Origin: Trachythela sp. YZ-2020
Taxonomy: Eukaryota > Cnidaria > Anthozoa > Malacalcyonacea > Clavulariidae
Direction of reading: 5' to 3'
Assembly (NCBI GenBank): GCA_016169945.1
Contig: JADLSH010000388.1
Location: 3,856,501 to 3,920,500 of the forward strand
DNA length: 64,000 nt
Of the stretch, positions 26 through 50,956 are shown in pieces (the stretch's first letter is position 1; every line of letters starts with the position of its first letter). The position numbers were made by a program, and so were the translations under genes. Under the pieces are notes generated by a model. It made no database searches and was not told where the DNA came from. It saw only the letters and a program-made list of their open reading frames with translations.

Positions 26-4193
<4,168 letters not shown>

Positions 4194-4728: not shown

Positions 4729-7700
4729 TCATTCTATATACACCAAATCCAACACTGCCTCGCACATTCCTTGAACTTTTCCGATTTCGAATCTCAACTT
4801 CTGAACTCCCTTACTTCGGCATTTACGCTCATCTTCCAATGTGTGATGTATTCGTGTTCGTAATTTCTCAATTCTTACGTTGATTTCGGAGAAGTTTGGG
4901 ATTCCTAGATCTTCGAGGCCTTTCAATTTTGCCTTGAAGTCGTCTTCTTCTATTTCGCGCAATTGACATGCTAAAGCAGAAATTTGATAATATTGTGTTA
5001 ATTTCTAAGGCTAAACTTACTGTGTTTATACTCGATAGCTCTATATCAGTTCTAAACTGGTCTCTCGATAGAGGTGCATTTACTGCGCAGATAAAGTAGG
5101 ACGCGGTATATTTTGGTCAAATACTATCGTTCTTCGTCGTATTCTAGAGCGAATTTAAACTGTTTGGTAGTTAATTGCATGGCTTTTTAGAGAGTTACAC
5201 ATATTATCATTCTTGAAGGGGATACCGATTAGACTTGAGAGAAATGCGTTAAAACCAGAAAATCGACGATAGTTTATGGGCTATGCATGCGAGTCTGGGC
5301 GATTTCGCGTGCCATGTTTTCTTCCATCGCTTTAAGAGGCTCGGGCGGATAATGCTATGTGCAGGTGGTGCAGGCATATATAAAGCTGAACTCCTGGGCT
5401 GGGCACTACCAGTCTCTTACATCATGCACTTAATATAGAAGCCATGCATGTCTAATTGAATTAAAAGTTAATTGTATCAGCAGGCTTGATCTGACCACAG
5501 ACATCGATATGAGAAACCACTGCGACTGGGGTCATTATAGGGTCAATTCTGGAACGTTCTGTATTTAACTATTTTAATTTTTGACTGTGGCTAATCGCAT
5601 AAATATTAATGTCGATTCAAAGAATTCCTAACATATTTAGTAACTTGATCCTACTATTATTGCAAAATTCCCCTTGCGAAATCACAAGCAAAGCATATTT
5701 GGCAGCGTTGCCACTCGTAGTGAAATTTCACTATTTGTAGTGAAATCGGTCCGAGCGTAGTGATGTAGTGAAGGAAATTTGAAATTGCCGAAATGTAGTG
5801 AAATGTTGAATTGCTGATGAAAATTTTAAAAAACCTTGCTGAAAAGTTTAAGGAAAATATTAAATTGGTTAGCCTGCGAACAGGCTCTTGAATTGAATTA
5901 TAGCCTGCCGGTTTAGTCAATAAAAATACGTCTGTGCCCATCACTATTTTTAGTGTTGTCAATCAAATGTAAAATACAATGTGACAAATTAATACAGACA
6001 CGCCTTATAGTAGCCTGCGAATATATGTAAACAAAACGCATATCTCGATTTCTACACATGATTGTTTACAACATTAAAAGCATTTGAAATTCCCTGAAGT
6101 AGCAATAGTGAGTGAATTCACATAAACATCGCAATGACTTGAGTTTGAACAACTACGGCGTACTAGAATGCTCAAGAATGCAAATTGTAAAATTGTTTAT
6201 TTTTTGTTGCTCTGTTACATTATCTGTTATTCTGTTAATAAAAAGACACTCTTACTGGCTTGTTATCATTTAGCGATCGGTATCAGGTCGATATCCAACA
6301 AAAACCTGCCATGTAGTGAAATGTGCGGCAAAATAGTGAAATTTAGTCACCGATATAGTGAAATGTGAAAAATCCGAGTGGCAACACTGATATTTGGTCG
6401 CGACATTTGCAAAATGCATTTCAACTAGTTTTACCAATGATAGGCGCAGTAAAGGATTATTTAGCTCCCAAGAGATTCGGTGCGATAGCCTACATATGTC
6501 TGATAGTCTATATCCTTTGTGGACTGACATTTATAGCTGTAACTTCGGCTTTGAGAGCGGGAGAGATCGGGAAATTTTCTTGTAATGTCGATGCAGCGAG
6601 TACAGCAGTGTACAAGAATTACGTCGAAAAAACATGTTATTCAAGATACGAACACGCGTACAACTCTCCTCTACCTTTGTACGGCTTTGTTTTACTGAGT
6701 GTTTGCTTCACAGCTCTCGTCAGTGTCATTTACTCACTAGGAGTAAAGGCTCGCGTCGACGAAATCGACAGAACCTCGAACGGAAGTGATGAGCGGTCAA
6801 GATTAATCGATCGCGAGGAAGCGAGCCATGGATTTTATGTTTTTCACTTCTATTTTATCCACCTTGTTGTCCGTTCGCTATTTGGAATTCTGTTTACTGT
6901 TCTGCAATATACAGTATTTTATCCCAGTGGATTTCATTTCAAATTCAGTTGCGATCTACCAAGTGCAGATGTAACTTCTCAGATAGGAAAAAATACAAGT
7001 ATTGGTAAGCTTAATAGTACTTCAATAGCATGCGAGAATTCGACTGCATCAGAAAAGCAGTTATGGAGCATGATTGTCTCTGTATTAAACACTGCTTTTG
7101 CATTAATAACACTTGGCGAAGTGATTTATCTCATTTGGCGACGGTTTTCAATCCTCAACTGTCGTTCTGAAAATGGCTGGAGCTGTGACAGGGAGTTTAT
7201 TACTGCCCATTTACTTCGTAAGCAATATCAACATGAACTATCAATCGTCCATGATAACACTGCGTTCTGTGTCGATTCTTACAAACAAGAAGTTTTGAAC
7301 CGTGCACCTGACATATGTTACGGTAATGGACAAAAAACAGATCTAGATTCTTTATATACCGACGTTGTTATTCACACTGAGCGAGCACACCACAACTTTT
7401 CAAAGGAAATGAAGAGACACGAAATATTTGATGTTTATACGCAGGTTCCTCCATACTCCAAACGTCTGGAAAAGATTGATGATTTATTTTATCCCAATGA
7501 AGATACGAAAGGCAATTTTCCTCGCACCATTCTGGTAGTTGGACGACCTGGAATAGGCAAAACAGTCTTGACGGAAAAAATTATCCGTGATTGGGCAAAT
7601 GGAATTGATGAATTTTATTGTGGTAAGATTGCTTTCTATATTAAATTTAGATGGTTTAATTTTGATGAGTTAAAAAACTTATCTCTTAAGACATTTCTAC

Positions 7701-10700
7701 GCTACGGTACGGGGCTCAGCGAAGAAATATTTGAAAGTATTTTTGAAGAAGTTTTAAAGGAACCACAGAAAGCAATTCTTATTTTTGATGGTTTGGATGA
7801 ATTCAATGGCGACCTGAAAAACTGCTTAGAACAGTCACGAATGTTTCCAAACGATTCCAATACTTGCATGTCTGCAATAACATTATTCATTAAACTGGCT
7901 CACGGCAACTTGTTGCAAGGCGCAACGGTTCTAGTAACCAGCAGACCGACTGCAGATAATTTTTACTCCAATCTTGATTTTGATCGAAGCGTTGAGATTC
8001 TTGGTTTCACTACAGGTAAAATTGAAGAGTATGTCAGCAAATTTTGTGACAATATTGACAGAAGTGACCTTAAACTAAAGATATGGAACCACATAGAATC
8101 CTCACAAGACTTGTCCAATTTATGTTACATTCCTGTAAATTGTCTTATTATATGCGTCGCTCTGTCTAGATCTGTCAGTGCAGATCCTAGAAATGACACC
8201 GGCGCTCTTCCAACAACACTGACTGAACTTTATCAGACGGCCATAAATCACTTCGTGGAGAAGCACGACAGAAATGCAGAAGAAACCTCTTCAAAACAAA
8301 TGGCAAAGGATCTTCAGGAATTGGCATTCCGTGGTATGGAGAACGGGCAATTGGTTTTCAACAAACAACTATTCGGTGAACGAATGAAGAAGTCTGGTTT
8401 GGTGAACAGTTTATCTAATCCAATCTTCCCAGTTCAAACACAGTATTGCTTCGTGCACTTAACCATTCAAGAATTTCTTGCTGCAAGGCACGTGATTGAA
8501 ACGCTAGCACCGGAGGAGATAGAGAAGTTCATTTCGACTCATATTGGAAGTGGTAAGTGGCATTTAGTACTTCAGTTTATTGCTGGACTTCTAGGCGAGA
8601 AAGTGAAGATGTCTGGCAGTGATTACCATGATTGTGTTTCGGCTTTTGCAAAAGGCATAACTGTACATGAAGGAGAAGTTAGGCTTACGGAGTATGTTAA
8701 CATGGTTGCAATAAAATGCCTAAGGGAAGTGGATGATGAAGACATTGTTAAAAAAGCTTGCGAAGAAGCTGATTTAAATCTTGTTACGAGAGTTGAATAT
8801 CATCCTTCCGACATAACACTTTCCACAAGTGACTGGGAATTAGCAGTGACTTTCGTACGCCATCATTTCAACAATTTAGTAGATTTACAGATCACTGACC
8901 CAATAGATAATGATAAATTTGTTGTTGCAGTCAGTAAACTGCTGCAACAAAAATGCTTAGAAAGGTTGGCATTGGACACCAATATACGCGCAGTTAGTGA
9001 CTTGGCAAAGCAACAACTAACCAGTGCATTGATGAAATCAAAATGTACATTGAACCATGAACACGCTAAGCTCAGTGACCTTCAGCTGAGTATTGGCATG
9101 ACTGATGAATGTATATCAAACATATGTGCATTTATTAGAAACGGACATGCAAGTCATCTTCAGAAGCTCGATCTGAGCAAGAATAGAACCCCTTCACGTG
9201 GGATTTCCCAACTCTGTGAAGTTTTTAATGATATACCTTACAGAGAACTTAGACATCTGGATTTAAGTGTTATGGTTATAGGTGAGGAATGTGTGGATAT
9301 GTTGTGCGATGCTTTAATTCAACTACAAAGACATGGTAAGCTTAATACGTTGATCCTTGATAACTGTTCATTAACAGCAGAATGCGTCCGTTACTTGTGC
9401 AAAGTTCTTTGTGACCAATATTGTAAACTGAGTAAACTGTCATTGAAAAAAAATTACGGCATAGGTGATGAAGGTGTACACATGTTGTGTACTAATGCTC
9501 TTAGACGAGGACAATGTGAGCTTACTCATTTGGATCTTGGATGTTGTTCGCTAACAGCAAATTGCATACTTGAGGTGTGCAAGGTTTTGGAAGATGAACA
9601 TTCTAAACTGAGTGAACTGTCATTGGCATTTAATGGCATAGGTGATGAAGGTGTACGTATCTTGTGTACTAATGCTCTTAGACGAGAACAATGCAAACTT
9701 ACAGTATTAGATCTGAGTCTCTGCGGTATAACGGATGGATGTGTAGCGCTTCTGTCCGACACTCTGCAAGATGGAAACTGTAAGCTTACTAAATTGCATC
9801 TAGGTAATAATGACTTTACCGAATATGCCGGTGAGAGCTTTCTTCCTGACGTTGCGAGAACGGAAAGCTGTAAAGCTAGAGGTTTAAAATTATACGTCTG
9901 ATTAATTAGCAGAAATAGGACCAAATTAGCAGCACAAATTCCGTTAACTTCAAGTGTTAGTTTTAATGACATTCCTCAGATTAATCTAATTTTTACTTAC
10001 ATGAAGTATCTTCTATACAAATTTCTCGACATGTAAGGCTAGTGGGCTTGAAAATATCCCTGTTCGACTATTGATTTACTAATCTCGAAGATAATTGTAC
10101 TCGACAATTCAATGTAGAGAACGGCAAAATAATATGGTCCCGAGTTATCTGTCCAGTAAATTAATTCCTACTTTGTCCACTCTCTGAAAAAGAACTTCTC
10201 ATATAGAAGTGCAATTTTGTGGAATAGTTTACCCGTCGAAATTACTAGGTCTAGGGCTCATCACTTGCTGTATTTAGATCTCTCATTCAACGTTTAGTTG
10301 CATTATAATTTTCAAGTAGATACTTAGTAGTTATATATATATTACTGTAATTTTGTCGATATTGTTTAGTTATATATATTGATTATTGTTTTTAAATTTG
10401 TTAAATGTTAAAATGGATCAAGTCTGTGGAAGGGCTGCGTCCTTCGTATTTCAGCTCAGCTCTCAGCTGCAAGTGAGGATAATTAGCACACCCCACTTAC
10501 TTACTTACTCACAATCAGTCAATCAAAAGAGGCATTAGAATTGCCTATACGTCACATGATTTTCAAACAATGCATAATTGCAAATATGTTCCTACAAGTA
10601 TCCCACAGTGCACTATACGCATTCCTGAAGTCCGTCTGTATTAGACCCCGTTTACACCAGAGCGAAAGATTCCGGGAATCATCACGAGTCTGAAACGTTT

Positions 10701-13700
10701 TATAGTAACGGTTCGTGTTTAATATATTTTTTGAAATATAATATGTTTCCATATAATCAATTAAATAATCACATTCTATCTATACTGAACTGCGGTGTTT
10801 ATTCCAATGTATGCTCATGCGGTTTATCCGATCAACACATTTTCCAATGAAGGACCTTTCGACTCATAAAATGTTCAATTTTGCGTCCATTTAGAAACAC
10901 AAGCATGTTATTTACTAGACGCGAAGCGCTGTTATAGGCGACAGCCGCGGGCGAGCGAGGGTACTAATTGTGTGGGGAGACAAAAACAATACAATGCTAA
11001 TGAAGAATCTCCAAGTACTGCAGAATAAGGCCGCCAAGATTGTTTTAGACAGACCACTACTCTCATCGGCAACCGACGCGCTAAACACTCTGAACTGGAT
11101 CACTCTAGAGCAACGAAGATTGTATCATAGGTGCTTATTGGTTTTTAAATGTATAAATAATCTAACCTCGCATGAGTTTGAATTTTTAACCAACAGTGAG
11201 GTACACAACTATAATACACGAAACAAAGACAATTTAAGGCTGCCCAGGGTGTCAAGGAATTGGGGGAAACAAAGATTGGAATATCAGGCCGTATCAGAGT
11301 GGAACAACTTGAACAGACAGATAAAACTTTCGAACAGTATTTCAACATTTAGGAGTAACTTTTTAAACTAATTTTGAACTTTTTGTATATGATATCGTTA
11401 GTATTTTCCTAGTTATGTAGTTTGCATGTATTCCTTTGTTTGTAACTTTGTAAATTGAGTTCAGGACCTTTCTGAAAATCACTTTGTGAGAAAGCTTCCT
11501 GGAAATAAATATTATTATTATTATTAATTCCGCTACGATACTTACACCCTGGTAAAGGAAAGCAATGTGAAATGAAAAGTCAAGAAGCGTGACTATGAAC
11601 AATAGGAACTAGACATGTGAGTTATCTAATACTAAACCTGGTTCACACTAGCAATTCGGCGATTATTCTCCTCCTGACGCATGCGAATGAGTGGGCCCAC
11701 AAACAAAAGTATGTGACCATTTTGGGATCGGTTTTACAAAGTCATACGTTGATATGTCATTCGCTCGATCACATCGATCAGGAAGAGAAAAATCGCTGAC
11801 GAAATCGCTAGTGTAAACCAGGCCTTAGTTTCCTTTACTTTATTCTATGCACCAGAACATTAGTAACTAAGCAATGTGAGTTATTTAATGCTTAGTTAGA
11901 ACAATAGTAATTAGGCATGTGAGTTATCAAATGCTTACCCAGAATGCTTTTCAAATTCGCGACACAGGCCACCCCTCCATTACTTCTCTCGACTTTTGCC
12001 AATCCATCACTGTGGAGGTCAAACAGATCGTGAATAAACTGAATATCTTTTTTGTGATCCTCCATTACCAATACGCGATCCTCAAGTTTCTTGATCTGAC
12101 CCTCGAGGTACTCCTTGCGCTTGAGGATAGTTTTCAGTGTGATGTAACGTGGCTGACCGTCGGTACTGTGGGCGTCTGGCTCGCTCACTCCACTGTCACT
12201 GGAAATCTCATCTAAAGAGTAGATTAAGGTTTGTTATGTTTGATGAGTACAAAATATTACGAAAGAGAGTAAAACGCAAAGGCGTAGCCAACTTAAACTA
12301 GCTCTATTTATACTGGATAGGTATATCAGTTCCAGACTGTTCTCCCATGGAAGTTGATAGTTTGTTAGAAAAAGAGGGGTGAGATTAGGAAGGGAGTGCT
12401 GCGGGCGGGAGTGCTGCGGGCGGGTGAAGCGAGGCAAACTAACAAACTTTTGCCAAGCAGACTAGGAGGTTATTTAAGGGTTGTTTAAGGGCAATCTCCA
12501 AGAGGAAACTAATTAACTAACTTTATTTGCACGGGATAGATCTATCAGTACTGTCCAGACTGTTCTCCGTTATGGTTCTCGTAAGAGCCATCCTTCGTGA
12601 TTCAGAGTTACTTCAGGAGGAAATGACCTAAACTAACTTTATTTATACCGGATAGCTTTGTTAGTTCTATCTAAACTGTTCTCCCTAGAGCTCCAGTAAG
12701 TGTGATCCTTTATTCCTCGAGTGTTACAACCGAAGGAAACGGCGTGCACTAACGCTATTGGGTAAACTATTTGGTGTTTGGTAGAGTCAAACTAGAAGTA
12801 CTACTTCACTGACCTTTAATATCCATTGTTTCACTTTTACATTCCTTCATCTCATCATTTTTGCATCCATCTCGGGACTTCTCTGGACCAACCATACGGT
12901 CTCCAGTCATCCCTGGCGACCCCAAATTATCCTGAACTGTATCGCTTTGTCCTCTGCAATCCTCAGTTGTACCTATTTTCTCAGATTTAAATTTATTGAT
13001 AACTTCTCGTAATTCTGTCACATTCACTCCAAGAATTTGTTCCAAATCTTTCACGGAAACATTAGAAGAATTGAGGTTGCCTTGCCTTCCTTTGACGCCG
13101 ATTCTACCCCCTTTCAATCCCATGGTATCCTTGCTAATACTTTGGTGCGTCTTTTTATCAACAGATGCACCTCTATTCCTTGTCATCGAGTTTTGAGCTT
13201 GTCGAATTTTAGGACCTTTTCCCGGAATACTTGTTGAAACATGGGGCTTTTCCCCGGTAGTAACCCTACACGAGGTTGTTCCCTTGATATTTGGCGTGTG
13301 TTGGTTTGCGCGGATTGAATAATGGCGGGAGATCCCGTTGGCTTTTGTATTAGGAATCGTATGATTAGTTGTTGATTGTTTTGAGAATTGTAACGTCGTT
13401 TTTGATTGGTTGTTATCAAATTTAGTTTGTCTTTTGTTTGGTTTTTGTTTGGAGTTGTTTATTTGTTTTTGGTTGTTGATTGTGTTGTTGTTGGTATTTA
13501 TTGTTGGTTTTGTGTCGCTTTTTGTGTTTCTGACGTTGTAGTTTGTTGAAGTTATGTTTTTTGTTGTTTTTGCAGTGTTGTTGCTATTTATGTTGTGTGT
13601 CGGCGTATTGTTACTTTGAATGTTTGTGTTGTTGTTAATGTTGTCGTCGTCATTATTAGTGTTGTTATTGTTGTTGCCATTATTATTGTTGTTGTTGTTG

Positions 13701-15889
13701 TTGTTGTTGTTCTTGCTGCTGCTGTTGTTGATGTCGTTGTTAATATTGTTGTTGATGTTATCGTTGCTGTTGTTGCTCGAGATGATATCGCTCTCAGTGT
13801 TGTTTGTATTGCTATTGTTGTTTTTGGTGTTGACGTGACAATCCACCTCGTCGTGGATTTCTGATATTTTGCTCTCTCGAATATCAAAGGCAAAGGGATT
13901 TTCCTTTTTCTTTTTTACTAGCTCGCCGTTTTCCCCTTGAAAAATAATAATACAACTGTATTAGGCTATTCTTAGTTTTATATGGCATCGTATGGGCTAT
14001 GACTATAGGCATATAAGTTACTTTGAACATCATGAATTGATGAACGTACTATTATCAAGAATGGAGTTAGTCAATCTTACCAAGGTGACCTTCGTTTCCC
14101 TTACTGGAACCGATCTTATCCTCTCTATCCAGTATTTTCCCTTTGCGAACCTGAGTGCCACCTGTTGTACTCTCGTGTAGGCTTGCATCCCACACCATTT
14201 CAAATCCCTTCCACTCCAGTACGTCTCCTGAACAATCTTCATAACTGTCAGTCCTGGAGGAATGATCCAGAGTCTCCGTATCGCTATCCTCTGTTTCGCT
14301 ACCATCTGTCTCCGAATCACTGAAATTTGCAAACAACCTTTCACAAATCTAAAGCTTTGGTAAAACGAGAATGAGAGTTGACGAGAGTCACTGAGAGTTG
14401 CAACTCTCGCTCTCGTTTGATCGCCAACTTTCATGCACTCTCATCAACTTTCGTCAACTTTGAACTGGTTCAAATTTTGATGAGAGTTGACGAGAGTTTT
14501 CCCTCGTTTGGCCGGTACCCATGGTAATATCCAGTCAATTCTCATGCAACTCTTGTTCTCGTTTGACCGGTGCATGAGAGTTGATGAAACTCTCGTGCAA
14601 ACTCTCGCTTGCCAACTTTTATCAACTCTCGTTTGACCGGGACTTAATGATTGTGATGTTAGACCTCGGGTAAATCAATTTTGGATTATGCTAGTTTGTG
14701 GCTCCACACCGGACAAGCTAAAAAATTGATTGGCTGCGTTGGGAAGCGAATATTTGCTAGTCCACATATATAAAATAAAAACGTAGTAGCTCAGTTGGTA
14801 GAGCATTGGACTTAGCAAACCAAAGATTGCAGGTTCATTCCCACCGCGGTCAACGGCAATTTTTCAGCTTGCCTGGTGTGGACAATCTGAGCGCATTCCA
14901 CATGCGTTAAAAGAAAATATGTTATTTCTTACGTCACTTGTACTTCGTTGCTGTCGTGTTAGTCCGTAGACGTGGTTGAGTTTCTGTTTCATACGTGTCC
15001 AGTTATACGCCATTGTTGTCGTTGTTGTGTTGTGCTGTATAGTCCTGTAATCGGTTAATATAGGCTTTTGAACAAGCTGAATAACAAGCAAGACGTATTA
15101 GTTTGCGATTCTGCACCGCAAGTTCCACCGTGTAAAGGGAGGTTCCCTATACTAGCCCTCATGTAGCCTGCGTGGCAGGCGTTCTATTGTTGGGGAGGGA
15201 GTTTTGTTTAGAGCGCGCTCTCTTTTTTTGAGAGCGCGCGCTAGGTGAGAAGTTAGGGGGGAGGAGAAAAAGCGAAAAAAGAGCGCGCTCTAAACAAAAC
15301 TCCCTCCCCCACAATAGAACGCCTGCCACGCAGGCTAGCCCTCATGTGCATGAGAGCAATTTGAAACTGATCGAGCTATACATCCATTATAGAAGCCTAG
15401 AAAGTTACTTTAGTATTCGCCTATAGTAACGTTGCACCCATGAGGTAATTTCCTTAGTGGATTTTAGAAGCGACAGCTTAGAGCTGATAGAGATATAGTA
15501 ATACAATTAAGTTTAGTTTAGTTTGTAACTCTGGTAGTAACACTGCATGGAGGAAGAACAGTAATGGCAGTAACGACTAACCTGTCGGATATATCACCTT
15601 CTGCCTTGGCGGGTTTCTCTTCCAATTTGTTTACAGTTGAGCTCTTCATGAGTCCATTGGGAATGCTATTGTTTAAAGGCACATAAGTTTTTTTCAGGGA
15701 TTATAGATACAATATAATCATGCAGCTTGCAGTTGAAATAGAGCATTGAAACATTCAAGCTGAACGATACCGTTTGTCTCCCTCGCATATCGCCTTCTTG
15801 GCATCCTTTTCGTCGCGCCGAGGTTGTCCTAAGAACAATCTTCGTAACATGCTCGCTTACTTCAGAATTAGTGAAAATTCTACTTTTGC
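4729..15889 (-). CDS. Unrecognised acidic/Asn-rich coiled-coil protein (host gene of the nested NACHT-LRR gene)
   Basis: Assembled by splice phase, in transcript order: 15861-15889 (weakest), 15582-15665, 14081-14319, 12814-13935, 11939-12211 and 4729-4970 (stop). Junction phases 2, 2, 1, 1 and 1 all match, with acceptor and donor signals at every edge. The protein has a Ser/Asp/Glu/Thr-rich acidic stretch (exon 14081-14319) and a Lys-rich start followed by about 100 residues dominated by Asn (13450-13800, AAC/AAT runs). A basic low-complexity region and then two helical charged exons with coiled-coil character follow (KRKEYLEGQIKKLEDR in exon 11939-12211). The C-terminal exon is leucine/charge-rich and ends in VLDLVYIE. 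No known domain was recognised, and the 5' end is uncertain. The intron 4971-11938 carries a complete gene on the other strand. A scaffold or nuclear regulatory role would be a guess. Confidence 0.65.
5010..5085 (+). repeat. Dispersed 'TATACTGGATAG' repeat, partial copy
   Basis: Contains TTTATACTCGATAGCTCTAT, ATCAGTTCTAAACTGGTCTC and GATAGAGGTGC, the first half of the family consensus. The stretch 5090-5690 otherwise shows no gene. Confidence 0.6.
5703..6389. mobile_element. Non-autonomous hAT element with 8-bp TSD, abutting the NACHT-LRR gene
   Basis: Ends CAGCGTTGCCACTCG (5703-5717) and CGAGTGGCAACACTG (6375-6389) are inverted repeats with one mismatch. The perfect 8-bp duplication ATATTTGG flanks the element at 5695-5702 and 6390-6397. 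The arms are rich in TAGTGAAAT motifs. It is 687 bp long with no transposase. The right end lies 47 bp upstream of the first ATG of the NACHT-LRR gene, and that reading frame stays open back into the element to 6362. Confidence 0.88.
6414..6428 (+). promoter_or_regulatory. Four-codon upstream ORF before NACHT-LRR start
   Basis: ATG CAT TTC AAC TAG lies 23 nt before the main ATG at 6437 and in a different frame. It could dampen translation, if transcription starts upstream of it. The same TAG could instead be a weak splice acceptor (CATTTCAACTAG) joining an unseen 5' exon. Confidence 0.3.
6437..9901 (+). CDS. Four-TM innexin/pannexin-like module fused to NACHT and leucine-rich repeats
   Basis: Single exon, 1154 residues from the first in-frame ATG. 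Four hydrophobic segments lie near residues 16-38, 80-102, 133-162 and 210-234. The loop between TM1 and TM2 has two cysteines 17 residues apart in a C-x-V-x-A...Y-x-x-Y-x-E-x-x-C-Y context. That is the spacing and flavour of innexin/pannexin extracellular loop 1. The TM3-TM4 loop also has two cysteines and three N-x-[ST] sites. A linker (about 235-368) leads to a NACHT NTPase: Walker A GRPGIGKT (369-376), Walker B IFDGLDE (449-455) and sensor TSRP. A winged-helix-like FVHLTIQEFLAARH follows. RNase-inhibitor-type LRRs run from about 875 to 1140. Typical NLRs are cytosolic with a death-fold N-terminus, which is absent here. Function as a membrane NLR is inferred. The start may lie in an unseen 5' exon. 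Confidence 0.88.
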   Translation: MIGAVKDYLAPKRFGAIAYICLIVYILCGLTFIAVTSALRAGEIGKFSCNVDAASTAVYKNYVEKTCYSRYEHAYNSPLPLYGFVLLSVCFTALVSVIYSLGVKARVDEIDRTSNGSDERSRLIDREEASHGFYVFHFYFIHLVVRSLFGILFTVLQYTVFYPSGFHFKFSCDLPSADVTSQIGKNTSIGKLNSTSIACENSTASEKQLWSMIVSVLNTAFALITLGEVIYLIWRRFSILNCRSENGWSCDREFITAHLLRKQYQHELSIVHDNTAFCVDSYKQEVLNRAPDICYGNGQKTDLDSLYTDVVIHTERAHHNFSKEMKRHEIFDVYTQVPPYSKRLEKIDDLFYPNEDTKGNFPRTILVVGRPGIGKTVLTEKIIRDWANGIDEFYCGKIAFYIKFRWFNFDELKNLSLKTFLRYGTGLSEEIFESIFEEVLKEPQKAILIFDGLDEFNGDLKNCLEQSRMFPNDSNTCMSAITLFIKLAHGNLLQGATVLVTSRPTADNFYSNLDFDRSVEILGFTTGKIEEYVSKFCDNIDRSDLKLKIWNHIESSQDLSNLCYIPVNCLIICVALSRSVSADPRNDTGALPTTLTELYQTAINHFVEKHDRNAEETSSKQMAKDLQELAFRGMENGQLVFNKQLFGERMKKSGLVNSLSNPIFPVQTQYCFVHLTIQEFLAARHVIETLAPEEIEKFISTHIGSGKWHLVLQFIAGLLGEKVKMSGSDYHDCVSAFAKGITVHEGEVRLTEYVNMVAIKCLREVDDEDIVKKACEEADLNLVTRVEYHPSDITLSTSDWELAVTFVRHHFNNLVDLQITDPIDNDKFVVAVSKLLQQKCLERLALDTNIRAVSDLAKQQLTSALMKSKCTLNHEHAKLSDLQLSIGMTDECISNICAFIRNGHASHLQKLDLSKNRTPSRGISQLCEVFNDIPYRELRHLDLSVMVIGEECVDMLCDALIQLQRHGKLNTLILDNCSLTAECVRYLCKVLCDQYCKLSKLSLKKNYGIGDEGVHMLCTNALRRGQCELTHLDLGCCSLTANCILEVCKVLEDEHSKLSELSLAFNGIGDEGVRILCTNALRREQCKLTVLDLSLCGITDGCVALLSDTLQDGNCKLTKLHLGNNDFTEYAGESFLPDVARTESCKARGLKLYV
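10110..10500 (+). mobile_element. Non-LTR retrotransposon (LINE) 3' fragment
   Basis: A short open stretch near 10182-10303 encodes KKNFSYRSAILWNSLPVEI, the 'F-x-x-R-x-A-x-L-W-N-S-L-P' motif at the extreme C-terminus of many LINE reverse-transcriptase polyproteins. It is followed by a stop and an AT-rich 3' tail. Only the tail end is present. 9902-10109 shows no other feature. Confidence 0.65.
10940..11527 (+). mobile_element. Non-LTR retrotransposon 3' fragment with (ATT)n tail
   Basis: An open frame to 11371 encodes LQVLQNKAAKIVLDRP and LNTLNWITLEQRRLYHRCLL, then NYNTRNKDNLRLPRV. This is the characteristic C-terminal region of CR1/L2/Jockey-like reverse-transcriptase ORFs after the RT core. 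The element ends in a 3' UTR with an ATTATTATT tail at 11508-11527. The RT catalytic domain is absent, so it is a 5'-truncated dead copy. Confidence 0.8.
11637..11822. mobile_element. MITE, CCTGGTTCACACTAGC ends
   Basis: Arms 11637-11652 and 11807-11822 are inverted repeats with one mismatch. The element sits between copies of a roughly 30-bp local repeat containing CATGTGAGTTAT (about 11600-11630, 11860-11895, 11900-11935). No clear TSD was resolved. Confidence 0.65.
12290..12740 (+). repeat. Dispersed 'TATACTGGATAG' repeat, three copies
   Basis: Copies at about 12295-12360, 12515-12620 and 12630-12735 carry TATTTATACTGGATAG, ATCAGTTCTAAACTG-like, TTCTCCCTAGAG and TCCAGTAAG blocks in order. 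They lie in the intron between exons 11939-12211 and 12814-13935. A tandem 17-bp GGGAGTGCTGCGGGCGG unit occurs at 12391-12425. Confidence 0.75.
14345..14645. repeat. GAGAGTTGACGAGAGTT repeat cluster
   Basis: Repeated, partly palindromic blocks of CAACTCTCGTCAACTCTCATGC and CTCGTTTGACCGG in both orientations. The same motif family recurs at 46385-46680. It looks like a degenerate MITE or tandem array in the intron upstream of exon 14081-14319. Confidence 0.65.
14703..14882. mobile_element. Terminal-inverted-repeat element with a tRNA-like core
   Basis: TIRs of 26 bp at 14703-14728 and 14857-14882 (3-4 mismatches) begin TCCACACC. Between them, 14790-14850 carries a Pol III-type A box (TAGCTCAGTTGGTAGAGC) and a degenerate B box (GGTTCATTCCC) at tRNA spacing. 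The acceptor and T stems do not pair, so it is not a working tRNA gene. Confidence 0.65.
15165..15336. mobile_element. MITE, AGCCTGCGTGGCAGGCG ends, 11-bp TSD
   Basis: Inverted repeats of about 55 bp start AGCCTGCGTGGCAGGCGTTC at each end. The 11-bp duplication AGCCCTCATGT flanks the element at 15154-15164 and 15337-15347. The centre is a GAGCGCGCTC-rich hairpin. TSD length points to a Mutator-like family. A partial copy lies at 27682-27757. Confidence 0.88.
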
Positions 15890-32900: not shown

Positions 32901-34837
32901 ATCTGTCTGCTTGTATAACACTGTGTTACAAAGGCCAAAATATTTACGCAGGGTCCGAGACAATATATATTAAATAGTACTTTTCAGGTTAAACTTTGTA
33001 ATTTGTATACTTCAAATTTTATATTATATATATTTAGTAATTTCTCCTTTGTAACTGCATAGGCATAGAATACTTCGAAAGGTTATAAGAATGCTTGAAT
33101 ATAATATAAAATACAAGTGAAAACGAATAATGGCCGGAAACGAAGGCTTAAACGCCCCTACATATTAAAATACTTGGCAATAATTTTGGTTGTTCCCCAT
33201 GTAAGGCTATGAAATATCATAATCCGATGGCAATGGCCCCCTAAAGTATGTTTTCATAACAAAATTTGACCTTTCGTCGCTGCTGACAACATTTGTGGCC
33301 GCCAATTTACGTCCGTGCTACTCGATACAGGCGTTTACCGATGGTTTCCGTTTTCCGCGGTTAGCTAGAATCGCCATGCATGAGTCAATCTTTAGTCAGC
33401 CTATTTTGACCCCATGACTTAATCTGTTAAACTTTTCAAGCGTGTTTATAGGATAAAGCACGAGTCTTAAAAACTTATTGGTCTTTGATAGTTAATTTAG
33501 CAATATACGGCTACAGCATTCAGTTTTAATCACAATACGTCAATAGATTCACAAATTTTAGTGGCTAGACTAATAGACAAAAGATGGAATTTGAAAATCC
33601 ATCGTGCTACACAAAGGGTTAGCTGGTACTAGATTTCACGCTAATAAATGATCTAATTTGTTAAAATTTAAACATTCTATATAACATTAGTTACTTTTGG
33701 GTAAAATTCTACAGTTTTAGCGCTAAAATATAGAAATATAAACCATCATACGCATGTGTAACATTTAGAACACACTAACCGGAAACGCTTGGAAATGTGT
33801 TTACAAATGAAGCCTTAGGGTAAAACCATGTGTAAATTTGGGAAAAGATCACTATTTCTACTAAAATTTCAAGGGAATATACTAAAGTATGGTCGTATAA
33901 TATTCTATGACGCTTAAAACGAAAAAAAGGAAGGAAATTGCACTTATAAGAAGCGATTTAAGAGCACTTGAACTTCTTACAATACTTTGCCTTCGAGCGA
34001 ATTTACATCAGAACCGGAAACCGGATATGACGTCATGGTACCCAACCTAGAACTAGCCTCATGAGAGAACAATGTGAAACAACAACAATAACACGAAATC
34101 GAATAAAAATTGTTTAAAAACTTACGATCTAAGCCTCCTATATATCTCATATCGACTTCACAATGGCCCCAGACTGCCGAGACGATAGGGTACACAGTTT
34201 TTCCTTTGAGACCCCGAAAAGCGACGCCGTAAAACTGTTCGTTTGCTTCAAAAGACAATGTCCCTTCTTCCATGTCTAAAACCACTCTCACGCATTCGGG
34301 AGTTGTAAAGTTATCGTTCGTATCGGGGTAGTTAATTTTTGAAATGTCCTTTTCGTCATGGTATAGTTTATTTCGTCCGATATCCCAACCCCAACTCTCG
34401 GTGTTGTTCCCCACTAACGTTTGATACCCGGTACACTGTAATGGGGCTTTTGACGTAGCGATTCCTACAACTGCGTGTGTACCGCGTTGTCTTGTCGGCC
34501 ATCGCACTTCCCAAACGTGGAAACCTCTCTTATAGCCAATTTTTCCTCTGACACAATCAGTACTTTGCGCAACTGGATGTCGATGTAAGACGTATGGATT
34601 GTCTTCCTTTATGAATACATTTGACGATTTGTCCTCTGGGTTCCATGCGTGTGTTCGCGTTATTTCATCTGTTAACTTAGGTCGATCTAAGATTATGTCT
34701 AACTTCTCCGGTCTAGCCTGCGTGATGGGGCTAGGCTTCGAAGGTACAGTGACGACGCTTATGTTCTTGTATCTTTGTAATCGGCTCTCGCTCGTTTCCA
34801 TGTTTGATCGTTTGGTTGATGAAATTCTCGCGCCCAT
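29903..34837 (-). CDS. SPSB1: SPRY domain-containing SOCS box protein (SPSB1/SPSB4 type)
   Basis: Two exons: 34126-34837 (start) and 29903-30045 (stop), phase-1 junction, 284 residues. SPSB proteins use the SPRY domain to bind short motifs in targets such as iNOS and Par-4. The C-terminal SOCS box recruits Elongin B/C and Cullin-5 for ubiquitination. The first exon holds the SPRY domain with SPSB1/4-family signatures: [59 protein letters not shown]. The second encodes the SOCS box ([17 protein letters not shown], then [13 protein letters not shown]). The splice falls at GLD/PEP, and the spliced protein reads [16 protein letters not shown], the family motif. The start at 34837 (MGAR) matches the MG start of vertebrate SPSB1; the frame stays open upstream to a GTG at 34894. 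Length matches the family (about 270-280). SPSB1 versus SPSB4 cannot be resolved. Confidence 0.93.
30046..34125 (-). other. 4.1-kb intron of the SPSB gene
   Basis: No other gene was recognised. It contains a (TA)n tract at 30106-30122. A segment at 30480-30580 (AATTTAGGCAGTATTCTTCA ... ACCCTTTCGTCAGCAGG) is shared with 60180-60760. A long non-repetitive AT-rich block (30700-33950) lacks the MITEs common elsewhere in the window. Confidence 0.6.
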
Positions 34838-35237
34838 TCTATATGGCAAATAACGTGCCGCCCGTCTTTCGTTTAAGCAAGCCAACTTGTTCACGAATAG
34901 CGAAACTAAATGTCGCCCAAAGACCGTTGTATTCTTTTTAATACGAAACGAAAAGCGTTCGCGTTTATACTTTCATTCGAGACGAGCTTAAACACAATAT
35001 ACAATGAGCCCGCGGAGATTTTTGTCGATACGACAACACGCGATGTAATTTCTTTGAGATTTATTACGATTTCGTTCGTATTTAGCGTTCTACTAAACAC
35101 ACATTTATTCTGAAAGGCTTTATAGATATATACGAGTCCTTATTCAGTTATTCTTTGTCAATCTTTTGTGAATTTGCCAGAATTCAACACGGCTCGCCGA
35201 CTTGTTTGAATGACTGAATTTTCCGCTTATGCTTCTC

Positions 35238-49900: not shown

Positions 49901-50799
49901 ATACTTTCTATAAAATGTCTTCAGTCTAAACATATGAAAGAATAAACGCTCTTCTCTAATAGTTCCTTATCTAATAAACCTCCCTCCCCCTGAAAGTACG
50001 AAAATAGATCATTAGTAGTCTAGTAGATCATTTACAGTATGTAAATTATAACACAGCAGAAACGATTAACTACAAACGATATCCGGGAGACCGATTTAGA
50101 AAGTTGATTATCGCTAAATTAGAAACAGCCATCGCCCAATAATCAATATAGTTCTAATTGTCCAATTTTATAGACTAGAGATTGTCACCTCTCAAGATGC
50201 ATCATCTGTCTGACAGATAATCGGTCTGAGTGTAAAGAACGGCAAACTATGTCGATGAACTACCGCCCTCTAGCTCCAGCATATTCAAATCAGGCCAATA
50301 TGTTCTCGCAAAGGCAGAAGTATTAAAAAAATAAAGAAAGTAAAAGGTTCTTCTGAAAAATGTCAAAGTAGTAAACTCCAATATAAACACACAATATAAC
50401 AAATATAAATGCAGCTAGAAATAGCTTACCGACAACAAATCCGTACATCTTCTCCGCACTTTCCAAGCCGCTGTAGATCAAATGTTTGACCCCTTCTTGC
50501 AAGCATGCATCGACGGCGCCTTTGCCTTGCCTTTCTTCACGTGCTCCATCCATGCCATCCCAGAAATTGGTGAGCAAGAACACCGCATGCGAACCTGCTA
50601 TCGCTTTATTTAGCGATTCCGGCTTGTCTAGGCTAGCTTCGACCATTTCAACGCCTTGGGAGGCGAGCTCCTTCGCTTTTTTGCTTTCCACAGAGCGAGT
50701 GATGCCTCGCACTTTGAATTTGCCTCCTGCAAGAAGAGCTCTGACAACTCCGCCACCTTGTGCTCCCGTTGCACCAAAAACTGTTACCAAACGAGACAT
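46957..50799 (-). CDS. NMRAL1: NmrA-like family domain-containing protein 1 (HSCARG-like NADPH sensor)
   Basis: Four exons: 50430-50799, 47974-48189, 47431-47549 and 46957-47148 (stop); phases 1, 1, 0; 298 residues, against 299 in the human protein. The family is an atypical short-chain dehydrogenase fold that binds NADP(H) and acts as a redox sensor rather than an enzyme. The N-terminus has the Rossmann motif VTVFGATGAQGGGVVRAL, followed by GITRSVES and SGLES. Later exons carry the typical MTWNSVRMPGYFNN, the DLGECV stretch and KFGFPGAEEMASMFRLYQ, ending in HKADFESFL. The start MSRLVTVFGA at 50799 fits the family; the frame is open a little upstream without an ATG. Intron 1 (2.2 kb) holds a 383-bp direct repeat pair and a MITE; intron 2 holds an (ATC)n tract. 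Assignment is by signature motifs and full-length co-linearity. Confidence 0.93.
48225..48400 (+). repeat. Dispersed 'TATACTGGATAG' repeat, well-preserved copy
   Basis: CTATTTATACTGGATAGTTC, TATCAGTTCTAAAAG, GTTCTAGTAAAGGTCATCCC, GCTGCTACAGGAGGAAACCT. One of the best copies for deriving a consensus. Confidence 0.8.
48509..49932. repeat. 383-bp direct repeat pair flanking a 650-bp interior
   Basis: 48509-48891 and 49549-49932 are more than 95% identical by eye, from TATTTGATGTTCTGTAATAA through to CAGTCTAAACATAT. The layout resembles short LTR-like direct repeats or a segmental duplication. A MITE occupies much of the interior. Confidence 0.85.
48905..49236. mobile_element. MITE with CATAGGCRGATTTTC ends
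   Basis: CATAGGCAGATTTTC at the left and GAAAATCCGCCTATG at the right are inverted repeats with one mismatch. The sub-ends contain GGGGGGGTGC / GCACCCCCCC runs. It lies between the two 383-bp repeats. Confidence 0.75.
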
Positions 50800-50956
50800 T
50801 TTCGATCTTCGGTTTCCAAGTTTCAAAGCCGATTGTGGAGTGCTTCGTCTATGTGCGATTACTGATTAGTATTGGTTGACGTTACATAACTTTATAATTA
50901 TAATTGTTTTTGTGCAGCCCTGTAATTATATATTTCCGGCGTTCCTTAATTAGTGC

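Follow-up and report, generated by a model that had tools for sequence, protein, structure and literature searches.

Gene organization of the locus

The window analyzed here, a stretch of 64,000 nt (G000:C253:3856501-3920500, forward strand of contig JADLSH010000388.1) from the 578 Mb assembly of the anthozoan Trachythela sp. YZ-2020, carries a single-frame gene at 6437..9901 (+) whose 1154 aa product comprises a connexin-like four-transmembrane (4-TM) domain, a linker, a NACHT domain, an HD2-like region and leucine-rich repeats (LRRs). The frame is uninterrupted and lies within an enclosing open frame at 6365..9901 (+), in which the ATG at 6437 was taken as the start; this position coincides with the own first methionine of 101 of the 116 relatives that cover the membrane domain.

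The cytosolic part is that of a nucleotide-binding, leucine-rich repeat (NLR) protein. Behind the membrane domain is a linker (residues 236-362; 7142..7522, +), with a conserved stretch that reads D-x-x-Y-x-D-V-x-I-x-T-x-R-A in the alignment consensus, and then the NACHT domain (residues 363-537; 7523..8047, +; Pfam, 6.6e-23), which contains an intact P-loop, GRPGIGKT, at 7541-7564 (+). In an alignment of 44 rows the P-loop core G369-G374 and residues D451, D454 and E455 are invariant (44/44), and K375 and T376 are kept in at least 90%. A weak match to the helical NLRC4_HD2 region follows at 8456..8752 (+; Pfam E 4e-4, under the curated cut-off), and the C-terminus is formed by LRRs (8777..9898, +), recognized by Pfam LRR_6 (7.4e-11) and in the whole-protein model. 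That model (mean predicted local distance difference test, pLDDT, 78.5) matches NLRP3, NLRP14 and NOD2 in the PDB. The gene is thus likely of the NACHT-LRR immune-receptor type, with the sensing of an immune ligand a prediction, and the first-pass annotation was right in placing a NACHT-LRR protein behind a membrane N-terminus (residues 1-234). It is hardly credible that the gene model is an artefact or a decayed copy: two neighboring copies at a distance of 51-57 kb have fallen apart into several frames, but the window copy stays open over all of its 1154 aa, and many assemblies and genes share the architecture, under purifying selection.

Topology and conservation of the membrane domain

Four hydrophobic segments lie within residues 1-234 (6437-7138), and an AlphaFold2 model of residues 1-253, whose membrane part mostly reaches pLDDT 90-96, has helices at 16-46, 81-114, 118-161 and 203-240, in agreement with the four membrane segments annotated at first pass. 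On the plus strand, a short N-terminal helix (residues 2-9, 6440..6463; low confidence, pLDDT about 50) precedes TM1 (residues 16-39, 6482..6553). Outer loop 1 (6554..6676) contains C49 (6581-6583) and C67 (6635-6637), with E43, F47 and C49 spaced as in connexins. TM2 (residues 81-102, 6677..6742) leads into an acidic, variable cytosolic loop (residues 103-134, 6743..6838), and TM3 (residues 135-162, 6839..6922) bears R146 and Q157. Outer loop 2 (6923..7057) contains C172 (6950-6952), C199 (7031-7033) and N-x-S/T motifs at N186, N193 and N201, and is followed by TM4 (residues 208-235, 7058..7141), which bears E228.

Conservation was assessed in a 117-sequence set, made up of the window protein and 116 of 120 listed relatives (four without domain coverage were left out), and in 129 rows obtained by adding 12 hexacoral-type rows. 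C49 is kept in 116/117 sequences, and C67, C172 and C199 each in 117/117, so that the cysteine pairs proposed earlier for the first and second outer loops both stand, as C49-x17-C67 and C172-x26-C199. The loop-1 spacing of 17 occurs in 113 of the 116 rows having both cysteines, whereas the 12 hexacoral-type rows have spacings of 8 to 15; the value of 17 is an octocoral-type feature and does not serve as the innexin/pannexin signature for which it had been taken. The cysteine-to-cysteine stretch of loop 2 varies from 21 to 33 residues. Across the 129 rows there are two conserved cysteines per outer loop, as in innexins and pannexins, and K6, K12 and F14 of the N-terminal stretch are at least 97% conserved. 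N-x-S/T motifs are present in loop 2 of 117/117 sequences (mean 3.1), in loop 1 of two and in the cytosolic loop of 45. Given these loop-2 motifs, the basic residues ahead of TM1 (K6, K12, R13) and behind TM4, and the need of a NACHT domain for the cytosol, both cysteine loops would face the outside.

Relationship to connexins

At the level of sequence, residues 1-240 are related to the membrane domain of connexins, and are not innexin- or pannexin-like. The best Pfam family for the isolated domain is PF00029 (Connexin; 2.7e-5). Within a set of 27 sequences, A2 (the window protein and 26 relatives), this family was matched by all 27 at E up to 10 and, with 2.9e-8 as the best value, by 25 at E up to 0.05. 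Seven families appear in A2 at the latter threshold, the six besides Connexin matching 1 to 6 members each, and among the 27 sequences there is no innexin or pannexin family (including PF00876) and none of LRRC8 type. No Connexin match was returned by any of five reversed control sequences. Five more distant members gave weak Connexin matches (0.0026-0.039), while ten further proteins (nine hexacoral-type and one octocoral-type fragment) were evenly divided, with a match in five and none in five. Precomputed PF00029 assignments are found for 14 of 120 relatives in one listing and 21 of 83 in another.

Profile comparison, against four connexins (Cx26, Cx32, Cx43 and Cx36) whose sequences were entered by hand and verified on PDB chains, placed the homology above chance. 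The octocoral set scored 46.3 (P 87%, residues 39-236), a wider set (A3) 51.7, the 12-row hexacoral-type clade 42.9, both types combined 47.8, and a second clade of the same genome, represented by 8 frames, 47.5 across 197 columns. When connexin columns were permuted inside 25-column blocks, which preserves the hydrophobic outline, the maxima were 23.5 (60 shuffles), 23.6 (120), 23.9 (60) and 19.4 (60), and a reversed connexin profile gave 16-26. Scores for CD81 were 14-19, for claudin-4 12-16, and for LRRC8A (sequence entered by hand) 12-18, which is at chance; for scale, the comparison of two innexins with pannexin 1 gave 35.3. An innexin or pannexin identity, as given in the first-pass annotation, was rejected, since innexins, pannexin 1 or both scored at chance (14-21) and their Pfam families went unmatched at E up to 0.05.

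The spacing of key residues points the same way. E43 and F47 lie 6 and 2 residues ahead of C49, C199 lies 8 before K207, and K207 lies 21 before E228, all identical in the four connexins, although K207 is not kept in 5 of the 12 hexacoral-type rows. The distance from R146 to C172 is 26 in 127/129 rows, as it is in Cx26 and Cx32, and 25 in Cx43 and Cx36. Connexins have three cysteines per loop, whereas two are conserved here across the 129 rows, the middle one of each triad (equivalents of C60 and C174) being absent; the protein is therefore not a canonical connexin.

A connexin-type fold and topology are predicted as well. Foldseek with the domain model listed 50 rows, of which 49 were connexins and one was Panx1. 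The predicted membrane domain also has an LRRC8-like fold, LRRC8A being structurally nearly as close as the connexins. Innexin, pannexin and CALHM were absent among the 50 matches listed by VIA-align, an absence that excludes nothing. The expectation that the N-terminus would resemble a family of 4-TM channels was thus borne out for connexins, by Foldseek and by profile, and failed by profile for innexins and pannexins.

Several results weigh against this relationship. The window protein reaches 24.5 bits against PF00029, short of the curated cut-off of 31.3; the connexin profile is small, and against Cx26 alone the score is only 25.3. Neither the domain nor its profile found anything, connexins included, when used to search PDB sequences. 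This last result, together with the structural closeness of LRRC8A, would suit a likeness of fold only, in which another 4-TM family had arrived at a connexin-like four-helix form and the sequence match arose by convergence. Such an origin is unlikely, however, as three clades match connexins over 164-197 columns and well above shuffles, innexins, pannexin 1, LRRC8A, CD81 and claudin-4 have no such profile match, and the key-residue spacing is gap-free in nearly all 129 rows.

Distribution and evolution of the family

The first protein search returned named relatives from the octocorals Paramuricea clavata and Dendronephthya gigantea. A search seeded with four divergent members gave 47 proteins, which include a fragment of 179 residues, 68% identical to the query, of the hexacoral Desmophyllum pertusum. 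The domain continues into NACHT in relatives P0208, P0209, P0210, P0219 and P0220, and P0238 has both NACHT and LRR families. The 4TM-NACHT-LRR architecture, which the first-pass annotation proposed to look for in other cnidarian proteomes, recurs in many assemblies, and if the sources of these relatives are what they seem, the family would date back to the octocoral-hexacoral split or earlier.

The Trachythela genome itself has at least 62 matches to the membrane domain, fragments counted, and at least 94 to NACHT. For 47 of the 48 strongest NACHT matches the domain lies on the same strand no more than 2.5 kb upstream, and it is upstream of 5 of 9 compared among the 46 weaker ones. The sole strong NACHT locus without it (G000:C258:253381-253899, -; L012) has a frame that starts in the linker. 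When the domain matches were compared with 57 of the 94 NACHT places, no stand-alone connexin was found among them; five lacked a NACHT within 5.5 kb downstream. Of these, C206 is a stop-containing stretch, C135 covers an N-terminal part, C385 is a short fragment, and the remaining two are parts of the kinase-RNase gene at C334. The two close relatives 51-57 kb off (G000:C253:3805998-3811577, L060), which are split into several frames, stand at 75-78% in the TM domain. A second clade (L001-L008 and L028, on G000 C55, C189 and C283) consists of very divergent 4-TM-NACHT genes with about 23-29% identity; its frames are of 759-785 residues, with no LRR seen by eye in frame, and the repeats may sit in further exons.

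Ratios of nonsynonymous to synonymous substitution (dN/dS) were taken from 29 non-independent pairs among 11 genes (22 pairs for the LRRs). The medians were 0.33 for the TM part (0.10-1.16), 0.40 for the linker, 0.35 for NACHT and 0.52 for the LRRs, which evolve fastest among the paralogues. This bears on the idea that the 4-TM domain is itself the sensor, its glycosylated loops or its pore detecting an outside or ionic change that NACHT-LRR relays. Loop 2 is long, has glycosylation motifs and varies in length between its cysteines, as such a role would allow, but the faster evolution of the LRRs relative to the TM part is that of an LRR sensor, and we regard a sensing membrane domain as quite unlikely.

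A putative second architecture with a kinase-RNase module

Elsewhere in the genome, at L059 (G000:C334:1939500-1943500; 1316-3440, +), the 4-TM domain lies 5' of a frame with a protein kinase (1.9e-35) and Ribonuc_2-5A (1.4e-18), the two parts being separated by a putative intron of 175 bases that preserves the reading phase. Taken alone, this domain had no PF00029 match at E up to 1 and a connexin profile score of 25.7, and it is assigned to the family because of its match to A2 (99.9%, score 217.8). The sister gene possibly encodes a membrane kinase-RNase receptor similar to IRE1 and RNase L. If its parts form one gene, the same membrane module serves two cytosolic machines.

The kinase-RNase module of IRE1 and RNase L is activated when copies are brought together, and NACHT proteins act through oligomerizing, so both machines work by clustering. 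The apparent pairing of the domain with a kinase and Ribonuc_2-5A favors a membrane scaffold that forms rings and clusters the cytosolic module while conducting nothing, the output coming from NACHT-LRR or, in the sister gene, from the kinase-RNase. Because the module may serve two machines activated in this way, a scaffold keeps an appreciable, if minor, share of the probability. The residues shared with connexins include the outer-loop cysteines, however, and the conservation of K6, K12 and F14 goes beyond the need of an anchor.

Proposed function

We give about even chances to a NACHT-LRR receptor that uses its connexin-related N-terminus to carry its own pore, of hemichannel type, opened on danger. 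For this receptor the oligomer, pore, gating, ligand and outcome are put forward here as a proposal. A cytosolic danger cue would be sensed by the LRRs, followed by nucleotide exchange at NACHT and then assembly. The connexin-type domains would form, or be pulled open as, a large-pore glycosylated hemichannel, and the open pore could let ions in and ATP out, leading to alarm or cell killing. Since the coral loops keep both outer members of the connexin cysteine triads, two of the three inter-loop disulfides are predicted to be kept, presumably, by analogy with connexins, as C49-C199 and C67-C172. Large-pore channels are tied to inflammation and ATP release (PMC9868820).

Homology to connexins might instead suggest cell-to-cell gap junctions, with the NLR part setting their closure or opening. 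This is very improbable, as the middle cysteines are absent from both loops and loop 2 has about three glycosylation motifs; by analogy with the published pannexin case, these motifs make docking between cells unlikely. Glycosylation is reported to bar the chordate homologues of innexins from forming gap junctions (PMC8769644).

Two studies describe connexins and innexins as unrelated, and connexins as confined to tunicates and vertebrates (PMC8769644, PMC6391747). In the first, BLAST of non-chordate taxa gave no connexin-like proteins save a single sea-urchin transcript for which confirmation failed (PMC8769644), and in the second a survey by PF00029 and BLAST recorded connexins in craniates and tunicates only (PMC6391747). 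The available portion of a cnidarian NLR survey that includes D. gigantea makes no mention of connexin (PMC8260672). Among the matches listed from the open-access literature, no paper describes the architecture, in line with the first-pass impression that it is not well described.

If correct, connexins would gain an outgroup and a testable origin from this domain of anthozoan immune-type receptors. The receptor would also be an animal protein that could bring a channel with it, equivalent in one chain to an inflammasome plus its pore. More tentatively, connexins may not have been invented in chordates: their membrane domain may be an old animal module of stress and immune sensors, which corals would have kept as NLR-gated glycosylated hemichannels, uniting sensor, oligomerizing switch and pore in one polypeptide, and as a kinase-RNase receptor, and which was freed into gap junctions in chordates.

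Other frames in the window

Elsewhere in the window are a SPRY-domain frame (33977-34894, -; 6.3e-22) and a partial NmrA-like NAD-binding frame (50323-50826, -; 1.4e-30) that is probably one exon. An asparagine-rich frame of 346 residues (12806-13846, -) matches no Pfam family and is probably repeat DNA.

Comparison with known systems

With connexins the coral protein shares the order of four TM segments, the E/F spacing to the first loop cysteine, the outer cysteines of the triads, the basic residue of TM3, C-x7-K, K-x20-E into TM4 and the predicted fold. It differs in the missing middle loop cysteines, the loop-2 glycosylation motifs, a NACHT-LRR tail of 900 residues and its occurrence in anthozoans. 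Innexins and pannexins share with it two cysteines per outer loop and a similar fold (the single Panx1 row), and the pannexins a glycosylated outer loop resembling the loop-2 motifs, yet they lack a Pfam match at the threshold given above and their profile score is at chance. LRRC8 volume-regulated anion channels have no sequence-profile match to the coral domain, and we know of none with a NACHT domain. NLRP3, NLRP14, NOD2 and NLRC4 have the same succession of NACHT, HD2-like region and LRRs, with a likeness to the whole-protein model, but the N-terminus of such receptors is a death-fold or other cytosolic domain, whereas that of the coral protein is a polytopic membrane domain. The plant NLR resistosome channels, such as ZAR1, in which the receptor N-terminus becomes a membrane channel, resemble what is proposed here; in ZAR1 a cytosolic coiled coil inserts upon activation, while the coral domain would already be embedded in the membrane and is connexin-related.
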